Of a DNA stretch of 64,000 nucleotides, positions 4,471 through 10,590 are shown one piece after another. Under the pieces are notes generated by a model. That model saw only the letters and a program-made list of their open reading frames with translations. It was not told where the DNA came from and made no database searches. Origin of the DNA: an uncultured Dehalococcoidia bacterium (GTDB taxonomy: Bacteria > Chloroflexota > Dehalococcoidia > Lucifugimonadales > G958296245). The translations under genes and the position numbers were made by a program. The first letter of the stretch is position 1; each line of letters starts with the position of its first letter. Where the stretch lies: NCBI GenBank assembly GCA_958296245.1, contig OY282458.1, positions 1,974,197 through 2,038,196 of the forward strand, read 5' to 3'.

Positions 4471-7400
4471 TTGTCCTCGACACTAAAAACCCTTCCTTGG
4501 CCGGGATCTCTACGCCCTGCCCTCATCGCCCGCTTAGGGGCGGTGCGGTCGCTGGCGTCCCGCGCGCCCTACCCTGTCTGGGCGCTGGCCGCCTGCGCCC
4601 TCTTCCTGATGGCGGGCCTCGCCGTGCTGGACGACTATGGGGTATCAGCGGATGAGCCAAATCAACGAAGCATCGCCGCAGCGAACCTCAACTACATTCT
4701 GGGGGACCGCAACGCTCTACCGGAGGACCACAATAGATTCTACGGCGTGGCGTTCGAGATGCCGCTCTTGTGGGTGGAACGCGTCCTGGGGCTGGAGGAC
4801 ACCCGCAGCATATACCTGACCCGCCATATCCTGACCCACCTGTTCTTCCTGACCGGGGGCCTCTTCTGCTCGCTGCTGGCCTACAGGCTGTTCAACAGCA
4901 GGCTGCTGGCGTTGTTCGCCCTGCTGCTGTTCCTGCTGCACCCGCGCATCTACACCCACTCGTTCTTCAACAGCAAGGACGTACCGTTCCTCAGCATGTT
5001 CATGGTCGCCCTGTACCTCACACACCGGGCTTTCAGGCGCGATACGGTGTGGGCGTTCGCGCTGTGCGGCGTGGCCGTGGGGCTGCTGACGAACCTGCGC
5101 GTCATGGGCGTGATGCTGTTCCCTGCCGTCCTGGGTATGCGCCTGCTGGACCTCTACTACGCGGCGGGGCGTGAGGAGCGCAAGCGCATCCTGCTGACTG
5201 GCGGCGTGTTCCTGCTGGCCGGAGCGATCACGCTGTACGCGGTTTCTCCGTATCTGTGGAGCAACCCGCTCAGGTTCCTGGAAGCGCTTTCGGTATTGTC
5301 CCAGCACCCATATGATTCCCCTCAGCTATTCCAAGGCGAACGCATACCCATACCAGAGCTGCCGTGGCGTTACATTCCCACCTGGATCGCTATCACCACG
5401 CCGCCGTTTGCGCTCCTGCTGGGCCTGATCGGAACGGTCGCCGTCTGCTATCGCGGCACAACCCGCCCCGGCGATATTCTGCGTAAGGCTACGCTGCGTT
5501 TCGAGGTCTTGCTCATAGGCTGCCTCGTGCTGCCCTTCCTGGCAGTAGTGATTCTGGATCCGAACATCCATGACGGGTGGCGCCAGATGTATTTCCTCTG
5601 GGCGCCGTTCTGCCTGCTGGCGGTGTTCGGCCTCCACTGGTTGGCGTCGGTGTTCAAGCGCGCGTCGATGCGGTTAGTGATATATGGGTTGGCCGCCGTT
5701 GGCGTGGCCTTCGTCGTCGTCGAGATGTCTCAAATTCATCCCCACCAGCACGTCTATTTCAACTTACTGGTGGACCGGACGACCCCGGGCTATCTGAGCT
5801 CACATTACTATATGGATTATATGGGGACTTTGCACCGCGAAGCGTTGGAACACCTGCTGGCGAAGTACCCCTCTTCCGAGATATATGCGAACTGCTGCCA
5901 CGCAGACCGGAACCGGAGCATATTGCCGGAATCGGACCGCAACAGGATATTCGTCAAAGGTATTGACGGCGACCGCGTTGACTTCCAGATCATCAATGAC
6001 CGCGATCACACAACCTCTGCACAACGGGAGCCTGATTTGTACGCACCCGTTGTCTATACCCGCCGGATCTACAACACCGACGTCCTCACCGTATACGGCA
6101 TCAACTCGTCCATGTGGGACGACGCCACGATGGAGCGAGTCCGTGAAGAGTACCGGTCGGTGGTGTTGGGAGAACCTGTAATCCGCGAGGCCTTCGACGT
6201 ATACTTCAGAGGAAACGCTCTGTACTACGTCAAGGAGCCGTGCTTCCCGGCCGACGTACAGACGAACTTCCTCCTGAACCTCATCCCGGTCGACGCGCAG
6301 GACCTCCCCGACGACCGCAAGGAGCACGGGTTCGACAACCTCGACTTCAGCTTCGAGCGGCGCGGCGTGACGTTTGACGGCGGATGCATGGCAAAGCGCC
6401 TCCTCCCGGAGTACCCCATAGACAGCATCGAAACCGGGCAGTTCGTACGGGAGGGAGAGGGATATAGGAATATCTGGCGCGGAGAGTTTCGGGTAGAAGA
6501 CCAGGCCCCGGTAGTGAACGTAGTAGAGCGCTTTCGGGGAGAGTATCGGTCGGTGGTGTCGGGAGAACCTGCATTCCGCTCGACCTTCGACGTGTACCTC
6601 AAAGGAAACAGTCTGTACTACGTCAAAGAGCCGTGCTCCCCGGACGACGTGCAGGCGCGCATCTTCCTGTACTTAAACCCGGTCGACGCGCAGGACCTTC
6701 CCGAGCGCCGCAGGGAGGAGGAATCCGACAACCTAGACTTCAGCTTCCACATGCACGGCATACCGTTCGACGGCAGATGCATGGCAAAGCGCCTCCTCCC
6801 GGAGTACCCCATAGACAGCATCGAAACCGGGCAGTTCGTACAGGAGGGGGAAGGGTATAAGAATATCTGGCGCGGAGAGTTCCAGGTAGAAGAATATGCC
6901 GCGTTGGAGCGCCTCCGGGGAGGGTATCGGTCGGTGGTGTCGGGGGGACCTGCAATCCGCTCGACCTTCGACGTGTACCTCAGAGGAAACAGTCTGTACT
7001 ACGTCAAAGAGCCGTGCTCCCCGGACGACGTACGGGCGTCTTTCTTCCTGCACGTAAACTCGGTCGACGCGCAGGACCTCCCCGACGACCGCAGGCAGCA
7101 CGGGTTCGAAAACCTTGACTTCACATTCGACCAGTACGGCGTTATGTTCGACGGGAAGTGTATGGTAGGGCGCGACCTCCCGGAGTACCCCATCGCCGGC
7201 ATCAGTACAGGGCAGTTCGAACCGGACGGGGAAGACTATAACAATATCTGGCTCGGGCAGCGCGTGTTCCGGGTAGCCCGGGACGCCGAGGCGGAGGGCG
7301 TCCGGAAAGAGTATGAGTCGGTGGCGGCAGGAGAGCCTATAATCCGCTCGACCTTCGAGGTGTATTTCAGCGAAAACACTTTTTACTACGTCAAGGAGCC

Positions 7401-7692
7401 GTGCTCCCTAGCCGACGTACTGGGGTATTTCTCCCTGCACCTCAGCCCGGTCGACGTGCAGGACCTCCCCGACGACCGCAGGCAGTACGGGTTCGACAAC
7501 CTTGACTTCAGATTCGACGACTTAGGCATGATGTTCGACGGGGGGTGCATGGCAAAGCGCGACCTCCCGGAGTACCCCATAGACAGCATCAGAACCGGGC
7601 AATACCTACCGAACGAGAAAGGCTATAGTAGTATCTGGTACAGCGAGTTCCGAGTGGAGGACGCAGCAATGGAGCGCTTTCAGGAAGAGTAG
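4471..7692 (+). CDS. GT-C (GT39/ArnT-like) membrane glycosyltransferase with four tandem C-terminal modules
   Basis: A 1073-aa protein. Residues about 30-430 are polytopic, and the first external loop has the acidic pair VSADEPNQ, typical of lipid-phosphate-sugar-dependent GT-C enzymes (PMT, ArnT). After an extracytoplasmic stretch come four tandem ~125-aa copies of a module with the skeleton VY...N.LYYVKEPC...VDAQDLP...FDNLDF.F...G.CM...LPEYPI..I.TGQ. The module occurs once at the end of many glycosyltransferases elsewhere in the window; this is the only protein with four. Each copy has two conserved cysteines (KEPC and G-x-C-M), which could form a disulfide outside the membrane. The start is the TTG at 4471: no ATG occurs before the first membrane segment and the Shine-Dalgarno is weak. 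Donor and acceptor are unknown. Confidence 0.82.
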   Translation: MSSTLKTLPWPGSLRPALIARLGAVRSLASRAPYPVWALAACALFLMAGLAVLDDYGVSADEPNQRSIAAANLNYILGDRNALPEDHNRFYGVAFEMPLLWVERVLGLEDTRSIYLTRHILTHLFFLTGGLFCSLLAYRLFNSRLLALFALLLFLLHPRIYTHSFFNSKDVPFLSMFMVALYLTHRAFRRDTVWAFALCGVAVGLLTNLRVMGVMLFPAVLGMRLLDLYYAAGREERKRILLTGGVFLLAGAITLYAVSPYLWSNPLRFLEALSVLSQHPYDSPQLFQGERIPIPELPWRYIPTWIAITTPPFALLLGLIGTVAVCYRGTTRPGDILRKATLRFEVLLIGCLVLPFLAVVILDPNIHDGWRQMYFLWAPFCLLAVFGLHWLASVFKRASMRLVIYGLAAVGVAFVVVEMSQIHPHQHVYFNLLVDRTTPGYLSSHYYMDYMGTLHREALEHLLAKYPSSEIYANCCHADRNRSILPESDRNRIFVKGIDGDRVDFQIINDRDHTTSAQREPDLYAPVVYTRRIYNTDVLTVYGINSSMWDDATMERVREEYRSVVLGEPVIREAFDVYFRGNALYYVKEPCFPADVQTNFLLNLIPVDAQDLPDDRKEHGFDNLDFSFERRGVTFDGGCMAKRLLPEYPIDSIETGQFVREGEGYRNIWRGEFRVEDQAPVVNVVERFRGEYRSVVSGEPAFRSTFDVYLKGNSLYYVKEPCSPDDVQARIFLYLNPVDAQDLPERRREEESDNLDFSFHMHGIPFDGRCMAKRLLPEYPIDSIETGQFVQEGEGYKNIWRGEFQVEEYAALERLRGGYRSVVSGGPAIRSTFDVYLRGNSLYYVKEPCSPDDVRASFFLHVNSVDAQDLPDDRRQHGFENLDFTFDQYGVMFDGKCMVGRDLPEYPIAGISTGQFEPDGEDYNNIWLGQRVFRVARDAEAEGVRKEYESVAAGEPIIRSTFEVYFSENTFYYVKEPCSLADVLGYFSLHLSPVDVQDLPDDRRQYGFDNLDFRFDDLGMMFDGGCMAKRDLPEYPIDSIRTGQYLPNEKGYSSIWYSEFRVEDAAMERFQEE
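6130..7662 (+). repeat. Four tandem copies of a ~375-bp coding repeat (KEPC module)
   Basis: Copies begin near 6130, 6523, 6904 and 7291. Each encodes about 125 aa from an E-E/G-Y-x-S-V motif through FDVYxxxN, YYVKEPC, VDAQDLP, NLDFxF, a G-x-C motif, LPEYPI and TGQ to an aromatic-rich end. Copies 1 and 2 share long identical stretches of DNA, for example the stretch coding AKRLLPEYPIDSIETGQFV, which indicates recent duplication or conversion. Confidence 0.9.
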
Positions 7693-7792: not shown

Positions 7793-9397
7793 TTACCCGC
7801 CTGGCTCGTATATCTCGGTGGCGGGGTGGTACTGGTACCAGCCGAACCAGAACGAGGTAAGCGTCGGGATGCGCGGCAGCGTCCTAGACGGGTCGTCCTC
7901 TTTTACGAGCGCCTCTTCGGTGACCTCCCATCGCGCCCCGCCGGCATCCAGCAGGAATCCGGGCGCGCCGTCGTCCCTGCCGCCATCCACCGAGAACGTC
8001 TCGCCTTCCCGCGCGTATGCGCGGGCGGAGCGGGATTCGCCGGATGCGGCAAGGACGACGGCGACGCCTCCCACCGTGTCGTTGACCACTCGTACCTTGC
8101 GGAGGTCCTCCACCTTGTAGGCCTTTTCCCCGTCGCCGACCGCGAGGCCGATGACCACCTTCTTGGGCTCTATGACAGGGTCGCGGAGCCACACCGGGAA
8201 CCTTATCTCGTCGGTCGTGAAGTAGTCGTTGTAGATAGCCCTGGGGTCATCCTCAGGCACGTAGAATTCAGGTTCGTATACGCCCGTCTGCTTGGACAAC
8301 ACGGTCGTATCCGGGTGCTCGGCCAGCCACTCCGCCCAGGTCGTGACGACGGCAGGGAAGAACGGCTGCTCGATCCCGGAGTCGGCGAGGGGACCGATTA
8401 TGGGCTCCCCGGTGAACTGATGCCACAGGGACCTGGTGGCGCGGTCGTACATGACCTTGTTGCTGCGGTAGAGAAGCCCCGACGTCCCGAAGGTGGTCCT
8501 CTGGCCGTTTACGATGCCGGAATACACGATTCCGGTTCCGCAGAGCGTTCAGTAGACCAGGGATATCGGCTCGCCTCCCAGCTCGTCATTAGCGAGTTCG
8601 TGCGCGTTCATTATCCGCAGCGGGTACGCCCTGTGCTCGCCGTTTATGGACACTCCGAACACCCTGTCGTCGGGTTCCAGGTAACCTGCCAGCTCCGGGG
8701 ATACGTGCGGCGGGTCCTCCAGGGGCGGGATGCCGTCCACCGCCACCCCTCCCCATAGGATCTCCGTAAGGTCGGCCCTGGAGAACTCGATTGCCGGCTC
8801 CATGAGACCGGCCATTTCCGGGTCTATCAGACCCAGGAGATTGACCTTCCAGCTCGGGTACTCCGGGGGAGGGGCGTAATCGGCCCGGCGGGGGCCTAGC
8901 CACTCCCGCCACGCGCGCAGGTCCAGGCCGAAGTCCTGTCCGGTCAGAGCGCTGACGGTCTCGACGCCGAACTGGGCCAGGTCGCGGCTGAAGAAGAGCG
9001 CCGACTCGAGGATCACGGGGACCTGCGAAGTGTCGCCCTCCTCCTCGGCCCTGGTCAACGCCGCCACGGTGTACTCGGGAGGATGGCCGATGCCGGACAG
9101 CGTGAGGAACATGTTGAGGTTGGGGTCGTAGACGAACGGCGGTTCGAGGGCGGCCTCGGCCGTGGGAGAAGGAGAAGGGACGGGCATGACCTCCGCCGTG
9201 GGAGACGGGGAGGGAGCGGGCACGACCTCCGCCGTGGGAGACGGGGCAGGCGCTGCCGTCGAGACAGCGGTGGGCGCAGGCGCCGTTGCGGTAGCCTCGG
9301 CGCCGGGTTCTGCCGGCGAGCCCCGGCAGGCCGTTGCCAGAATAGCTACGGCTGCCGCTAAAGCCGCCAGCAGGGATATGCGATTCGTCAAGACCAT
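7793..9397 (-). CDS. DUF3179 lipoprotein with in-frame TGA at the YCxLCG cysteine (candidate selenoprotein)
   Basis: Reading through one TGA at 8549-8551 gives a 534-residue protein. It has a lipoprotein signal (lipobox LATAC, Cys about residue 24), a long Pro/Thr/Ala-rich linker with repeats of PSPTAEV, and a full DUF3179 domain: NGEHRAYPLRIMNAHELAND, then SLVY-[TGA]-TLCGTGIVYSG, then TSGLLYRSNKVMYDRATRSLW. As I recall the family, the motif is YCPLCG, so TGA sits exactly on the first cysteine, giving a U-x-x-C redox motif if read as selenocysteine. The frame is intact on both sides for hundreds of codons. A hairpin lies 14-32 nt after the TGA (separate entry). Other genes here end in TGA, so it is a normal stop codon. 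The alternative is a nonsense mutation in a dying gene. The DUF3179 reaction is unknown; the protein is probably anchored outside the membrane. Confidence 0.75.
8517..8551 (-). promoter_or_regulatory. Putative bacterial SECIS element following the in-frame TGA
   Basis: Immediately 3' of the TGA (8549-8551) the transcript contains CCGGAAU - CGUGU - AUUCCGG: a perfect 7-bp stem (8529-8535 with 8517-8523) closing a 5-nt loop whose second base is G. The loop starts 21 nt after the TGA. Published bacterial SECIS models, as I remember them, require a short apical loop roughly 16-37 nt after the UGA with a G among its first two bases; this hairpin satisfies that. Confidence 0.6.
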
Positions 9398-9459: not shown

Positions 9460-10590
9460 CTAGCACCCGACAAGCTCCTCGCGAAGCCGCCTTATAACCG
9501 TTTCCATCTCGTCGTCCGTAAGGTTGAATGGATCGACGGCCATCTCATCGGGGCCGCCCAGGCTGTTCAGGTATATTGGCGGATCGCCGGCCTGCATTGC
9601 GGCAAGGATATCGTCTCTGCCGGGTCCGGCCCAGTCGTCGGTCAACCTGATCACGGCTGTGGGGATATGGTAGTCGTATGGGTCGTGCTCAACGGTTGCC
9701 TCCACGCCGGGGACCTCGACGAGAGCGTCCACGGCCTGCCGGCACATGCGGATATACGCCCGTGTTTCGGCCTCTTCGTCCTCGCCGGCGAATATGCGCA
9801 GAGCGGTGATGAGGCCTATGATCTCCTCCTTAGCGACCTTCATCGAGCGGCCTATGAAGCGGTTTGGGCTGGCGTTGGCCGCCGCGGCCTCGATCAGGTC
9901 GGCGCGGCCGCAGAGGATCCCGGCGCCCTGAGGCCCTCGGACGGCCTTGCCGCCGCTGAAGACCACCATGTCGGCGCCCTGTGCGACGAACTTGCGGAGG
10001 TTCTCACGCGGCGGGAGCCTGGACGCAGCATCCACGATGACGGGGGTCCCCATTGCGTGAGCGATCTCGATTACCTGCGGCAGCGTAAGCGCTATGCGCG
10101 ACGTGAACGGGGAGATCAAGTAGGCCACGGCTGCCGTATTGTCGTTGATGGCGGATTCCAGCTCCCACGGAGCACAGCTTCGCCCGTTTCCAACGCCCAC
10201 GAGTTCGGCCCCTGCGGCGCGGTACGCCTGATCGTAGCTGAACCGGTGGGTGTTCTGGATGACGATCTCGTTCCGCATCCCCTGGGTGTCGGGCAGCCGG
10301 GACATCTTCACCGGGTCGGAGCCCGCAATGCAGGCCGCCGCCTGGAGGAGGAGGCCGCCGGCGGCGCCGCTCGAGACCAATCCGGCCTCGGCGCCCGTGA
10401 TGCATGCGATGACCTTGCCCGCCTCGCGGTTGAGCTCCTCCAAGTGGACCATGACGGTGGCGGCATCGTTCATAGCCCGGATGGCTTCGGGGCGAAGCCT
10501 GCTGCCGCCGTACATCGTCGTGGAGCCGGACGCGGTGATTATCGGCTGGACGCCGACGTCGCGGTAGACCTGCGCGGGATCGTCTGACAA
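9460..10590 (-). CDS. SelA-like / DgaE-like PLP-dependent enzyme
   Basis: A 376-aa fold-type I PLP protein. Early residues GVQPIITASGSTTMYGGS and the region TGAEAGLVSSGAAGGLLLQAA match the SelA/D-glucosaminate-6-phosphate ammonia-lyase group. The PLP aspartate is in PVIVDAAS and the Schiff-base lysine in MVVFSGGKAVRGPQGAGILCG. Genuine selenocysteine synthase is longer (about 450-470 aa), so this is more likely a lyase or dehydratase acting on an amino sugar acid. A TTG start at 10590 is the only reasonable choice: an ATG just upstream meets TAA at its third codon. It lies upstream of the DUF3179 gene on the same strand, 62 bp apart; a functional link is not shown. Confidence 0.8.
   Translation of the reverse strand: MSDDPAQVYRDVGVQPIITASGSTTMYGGSRLRPEAIRAMNDAATVMVHLEELNREAGKVIACITGAEAGLVSSGAAGGLLLQAAACIAGSDPVKMSRLPDTQGMRNEIVIQNTHRFSYDQAYRAAGAELVGVGNGRSCAPWELESAINDNTAAVAYLISPFTSRIALTLPQVIEIAHAMGTPVIVDAASRLPPRENLRKFVAQGADMVVFSGGKAVRGPQGAGILCGRADLIEAAAANASPNRFIGRSMKVAKEEIIGLITALRIFAGEDEEAETRAYIRMCRQAVDALVEVPGVEATVEHDPYDYHIPTAVIRLTDDWAGPGRDDILAAMQAGDPPIYLNSLGGPDEMAVDPFNLTDDEMETVIRRLREELVGC

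Follow-up and report, generated by a model that had tools for sequence, protein, structure and literature searches.

The DNA analysed here, referred to as the window, is a stretch of 64,000 nucleotides within the single-contig, 2.69-Mb genome (98.4% complete) of a marine Dehalococcoidia bacterium. Its minus strand carries a DUF3179 gene with an in-frame TGA, and the features needed below are located as follows:

7793..9397, minus strand: DUF3179 gene read as a selenoprotein gene, 534 codons, from ATG at 9397 to TAA at 7795-7793 (Pfam PF11376)
9326..9397, minus strand: N-terminal hydrophobic segment ending in ILATAC (Cys24), read from the translation; probable lipoprotein signal peptide
8789..9124, minus strand: predicted helical HEAT/alpha-Rep-like region (residues 13-124 of the AlphaFold model; alphaRep matches)
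8291..8689, minus strand: predicted first Rieske-like beta half, with U283-x-x-C286 and the invariant His266 (AlphaFold, fold matches)
8549..8551, minus strand: in-frame UGA, read as the Sec codon; residue 283, first Cys column of the CxxC motif
8517..8535, minus strand: SECIS-type hairpin, with 5' arm 8535-8529, loop 8528-8524 and 3' arm 8523-8517
7835..8158, minus strand: predicted second beta half, likewise Rieske-like but lacking the UxxC pair (AlphaFold, fold match)
9460-10590, minus strand: SelA-like PLP enzyme, not a Sec synthase, directly upstream of the DUF3179 gene

Translation of 9397..7793 (minus strand) gives a single internal stop in 534 codons, the TGA at 8551-8549, as the original prediction had stated. 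The surrounding residues are GGEPISLVY-U-TLCGTGIVYSG, and the Pfam DUF3179 match extends over both sides of the stop (residues 221-527, profile positions 2-292 of 292, 258.8 bits against a cut-off of 27). The flanks are open and conserved, which bears out the earlier statement that both flanking frames are intact, unlike those of a pseudogene. The TGA had also been placed at the first Cys of a YCPLCG motif. The Cys column is correct, whereas the wording of the motif is not: the Cys form of this subfamily is YCTLCG, and CPLC belongs to other DUF3179 subfamilies. From the translation the protein is probably extracytoplasmic and lipid-anchored; read by eye, ILATAC24 resembles the lipobox pattern, yet it has Ala at -3. 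The gene is easily mis-annotated, either as truncated or as two fragments. Its neighbours in the window are uninformative, with no redox partner among them. The adjacent SelA-like PLP enzyme was rejected as the SelA of this genome, as it is DgaE-like (best NCBIfam match to the DgaE family, 220 bits, below the cut-off of that family).

The genes for Sec insertion, for which a search had been proposed, are all present in the genome: SelA (525.6 bits), SelB (343 bits, in frame), SelD (373 bits, with an in-frame TGA of its own) and a tRNA-Sec with anticodon tca (UCA). The TGA of the SelD gene (L024) reads CAGUAS and is followed by a strong hairpin, UGGCGCA...UGCGCCA. Each of the four DUF3179 genes in the genome contains one TGA only, always at the same column; the motifs are TWUPLC (twice), TWUPIC and VYUTLC, the last being that of the window gene. 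The hairpins of the paralogues differ in sequence, while the stem and a small loop are kept: CGGGCAU(CGUGU)AUGCCCG, CGGGCAU(AGUCU)AUGCCCG and CCGGUC(UCGUGCAU)GACCGG.

The hairpin of the window gene consists of a perfect 7-bp stem, CCGGAAU/AUUCCGG, closed by the loop CGUGU with G at loop position 2, exactly as claimed originally, and the spacing from UGA to loop is 20 nt. RNAfold returns precisely this stem both as the minimum-energy and as the centroid structure, with an energy of -13.3 kcal/mol over 47 nt and -14.7 kcal/mol over 48 nt. Published criteria for bSECIS elements are a loop of 3-9 nt, a stem of 4-16 bp, a G in the first two loop positions, a spacing of 16-37 nt and an MFE of at most -7.5 kcal/mol (PMC13188914), and the window hairpin lies within all of them (5-nt loop, 7 bp, G2, 20 nt, -13.3 kcal/mol). 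When codons were randomised synonymously, 2.0% of the draws contained a qualifying stem of at least 7 bp, and 0.45% had precisely a 7-bp stem with a 5-nt loop at the same spacing. Relative to dinucleotide shuffles the folding energy is unremarkable (z -0.90, not significant), and reliance was therefore placed on comparative evidence.

Homologues were collected at several levels. The phylum survey covered 251 genomes, of which 50 had DUF3179, and found TGA copies at the column in 8 genomes besides that of the window. The species-genome scan used as query the part after the Sec, so that it cannot favour Cys or TGA, and found 80 loci, mostly in Dehalococcoidia, SAR202 and other Chloroflexota. The family-level survey found no genome other than the window's own, and a scan of viral_contigs found no relative. 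The exchange of TGA and Cys at this column, which the original prediction had proposed to look for, is seen in many genomes: 129 copies were readable at the column, 41 with TGA and 88 with TGC or TGT. Only copies with Cys or TGA there could enter this count. Six loci failed the pattern: L104 (TGA) and L151, L154 and L157 (Cys), which on inspection fit nevertheless, as well as L068 and L075, which hold fragmentary matches.

Copies with TGA and copies with Cys differ in what follows the codon. Of the 7 stem positions in register with the window hairpin, 5.45 pair in TGA copies and 3.06 in Cys copies (p 5e-9), and the best nearby hairpin scores 17.5 versus 10.2 (p 1e-15), p values that overstate independence as the copies are related. 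Of 33 distinct TGA copies, 25 pass a strict test that demands at least 6 bp and a G within the first two loop bases, whereas 6 of 88 Cys copies do so; most of the TGA failures have the hairpin type of L004, in which the CGUG loop is offset by one base. Among the 21 TGA copies of the covariation set, pairing is kept in 91% of the cells, and the two-sided changes, 28 in number, are spread over five of the seven pairs. The covariation score reaches 0.505, compared with 0.150 in shuffles (0/500) and 0.015-0.114 after sliding of the partner. The stem is not explained by protein coding, since the Cys homologues have largely the same peptide but no stem. This comparative evidence, 41 TGA copies with a hairpin that compensatory changes have preserved, is what we regard as decisive.

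A tree of the 129 copies, for which the trait column was masked, requires a minimum of four changes of the Sec/Cys label, all of them forced by starred branches; some deep joins have long branches, for which reason it is left unsaid which of these changes are gains. The window copy belongs to a clade of 28 Chloroflexota copies, all of them with Sec (SH-aLRT 96). Another clade, that of TWUPLC, is Sec with Cys copies nested in it, and a lone Anaerolineae Sec copy stands amid Cys relatives. In the phylum survey selA was present in all nine TGA genomes, and it was found in 22 of 26 TGA genomes from named records, the four without it being MAGs. Across genomes the association of Sec-DUF3179 with selA has the right direction and is not significant (31/35 versus 47/64, Fisher p 0.12), since selA is very common in the genomes surveyed.

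We read the TGA at 8551-8549 as Sec, and the locus as coding for a genuine selenoprotein that belongs to the known DUF3179 family, with a probability of about 0.95. The basis of this reading is computational: the UGA stands in frame at an invariant Cys column, the SECIS is conserved, the Sec machinery is complete and Sec and Cys have been exchanged repeatedly. The selenoprotein originally proposed is strongly supported by the machinery, the SECIS constraints and the exchange. Actual Sec insertion, export and selenenylsulfide chemistry are inferred.

Other readings of the TGA can be weighed against the same data. The codon is one base from TGC or TGT and Cys is the commoner state of the family (88 of 129), as would suit a nonsense mutation of a Cys codon in a pseudogene or a miscall in sequencing. 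The same-column TGA, however, recurs in four paralogues of one genome and in 41 copies from many independently assembled genomes, both flanks are open and conserved and the hairpin covaries; judged by this conservation in independent genomes the explanation is refuted in practice, and we give it next to no weight. A general reassignment of UGA in this organism, to Trp or Gly for instance, is hardly more credible: in-frame TGA does occur in several genes of the genome, but as TGA ends 15 of 42 long, non-overlapping ORFs in the window it is not generally recoded, and in DUF3179 it is found only where homologues have Cys, in a genome with tRNA-Sec, SelA, SelB and SelD.

Sec insertion is generally inefficient, and the UGA might for that reason be a genuine stop codon that is read through only in part or under regulation. 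The main product would then be an N-terminal protein of 282 residues, made up of the helical domain and a portion of a beta barrel. Such a stop would, on the other hand, fall inside the first beta half, the part downstream of the UGA is conserved and the Cys homologues make the full protein uninterrupted. Termination as the main outcome is accordingly considered very unlikely, both for the UGA and for the short product that it would leave.

An AlphaFold model of the protein (48-sequence alignment, pLDDT 95.6) shows helices in the N-terminal region, together with two beta halves, and the first half modelled by itself reaches a pLDDT of 90.5. Among the matches listed for this predicted first half by VIA-align and Foldseek, Rieske-fold chains are found almost exclusively, with the naphthalene dioxygenase ferredoxin (2qpz) at the top (Z 8.8, 92 residues, 2.9 A) and a best Foldseek match of probability 1.00 and E 5.8e-3. 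The second half has a weak match to a Rieske domain. No thioredoxin-fold chain is among the fold matches listed, which proves nothing. The two halves (7835-8689, minus strand) resemble an internal duplication, DRVFGVSINGEHRAYPL...ANDELGGEPISLVY versus KVVIGLAVGDGEKAYKV...VNDTVGGVAVVLA, in which the Cys/Sec pair is kept only in the first half.

Although the predicted fold of the first half resembles that of Rieske [2Fe-2S] ferredoxins and NirD-type proteins, DUF3179 has a UxxC pair instead of CxH...CxxH, the cluster ligands being absent across alignment A2, and there is no profile homology: hhalign against Rieske proteins (PF00355) gives a probability of 1-1.6%, not significant, and PF00355 is absent from the hmmscan matches at E up to 5. 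The only widely conserved Cys or His positions across alignment A2 are His266, U/C283, C286 and His361, and the invariant His266 goes with the UxxC pair. In the model the Sec would end a strand, with the TLCG turn directly after it. By eye, UxxC can be superposed on the Rieske CxxH at an identical distance, 16 residues, from the conserved His; this register is not claimed, as neither the structural ranges nor the weak hhalign register supports it. The model suggests that the first half is probably a Rieske-like beta fold without the usual iron-sulphur ligands. If this is true, a UxxC selenoprotein would here be built on a scaffold of the Rieske type and not on a thioredoxin fold.

In the explanation that we favour, SelB with Sec-tRNA(Sec) would bind the hairpin just 3' of the UGA at 8551-8549 and insert Sec at position 283, which would yield the full protein of 534 residues, and export and lipid anchoring would precede a role in redox reactions. 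At the edge of the Rieske-like beta barrel, Sec283 and Cys286 would then act as redox partners that probably cycle between selenol/thiol and selenenylsulfide, and the cycle would catalyse extracytoplasmic thiol/disulfide or peroxide-type redox chemistry. Taken alone, the redox mechanism through a U283-x-x-C286 selenenylsulfide is one that we mildly favour. One paralogue of the window's genome (L161) lies near genes for cytochrome oxidase subunit II and CtaA, and in the relative G027 (L162 4100-5074, 9976-11118) a convergent Sec-DUF3179 pair lies between two redoxin-type genes, near ResA-like and MerA-like (flavoprotein) genes and an ECF sigma factor. This gene context backs an oxidoreductase role only loosely. 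We would give about even odds to the wider proposal, built in part on the predicted fold, that DUF3179 proteins are extracytoplasmic oxidoreductases with a duplicated Rieske-like fold, a Cys/Sec-x-x-Cys pair in place of the iron-sulphur ligands and repeated switching between Cys and Sec.

It had been implied that DUF3179 is new as a selenoprotein family. This claim fails, as two reviews already list DUF3179 (PF11376) with the motif UxxC/T in their selenoprotein tables (PMC9312934; PMC13188914). The second credits it to Zhang and Gladyshev 2007, from the deltaproteobacterial symbiont of Olavius algarvensis (PMC13188914). In the open literature DUF3179 is rarely mentioned, by three of 5.39 million papers; no function was found given for it there, nor was a paper found with both "selenoprotein" and "SAR202". 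The expansion of Sec-DUF3179 in Chloroflexota (SAR202/Dehalococcoidia) and the Rieske-like fold were apparently not reported before. The window gene shares with the listed DUF3179 selenoproteins the Pfam family and a Sec that comes first in UxxC; it differs in that its genome belongs to Chloroflexota and has four Sec paralogues, and in that its YUTLCG marks a distinct subfamily beside TWUPLC. Cys forms of DUF3179 (YCTLCG, FCPLCN), which occur in Chloroflexota, Pseudomonadota, Actinomycetota and others, have the homologous column in the same domain and are open without a stop, but carry TGC or TGT for TGA and generally lack the SECIS hairpin. Once the TGA is read correctly, this genome regains four redox proteins and SAR202-related bacteria a clade of them, which suggests that the lineage uses selenium in exported proteins. 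The predicted Rieske-like fold offers a structural hint for a DUF that mixes Cys and Sec forms, and its chemistry becomes testable.

Other parts of the window were noted in passing. At 4471-7692 (plus strand) lies a PMT/ArnT-like membrane protein with about four C-terminal tandem repeats of ~110 residues each, following the pattern YRSVV.GEP..RS.FDVY..N.LYYVKEPC. The region 38794-60791 (minus strand) holds an array of eight large hydrophobic ORFs of about 690-790 aa with no Pfam match, and a Wzy_C-like ORF is found beyond it. The ORFs of the array are paralogues that fall into two or more body types, with 66-91% identity inside a type. Their C-terminal 105-125 residues are highly similar throughout, as recombination or gene conversion might produce.
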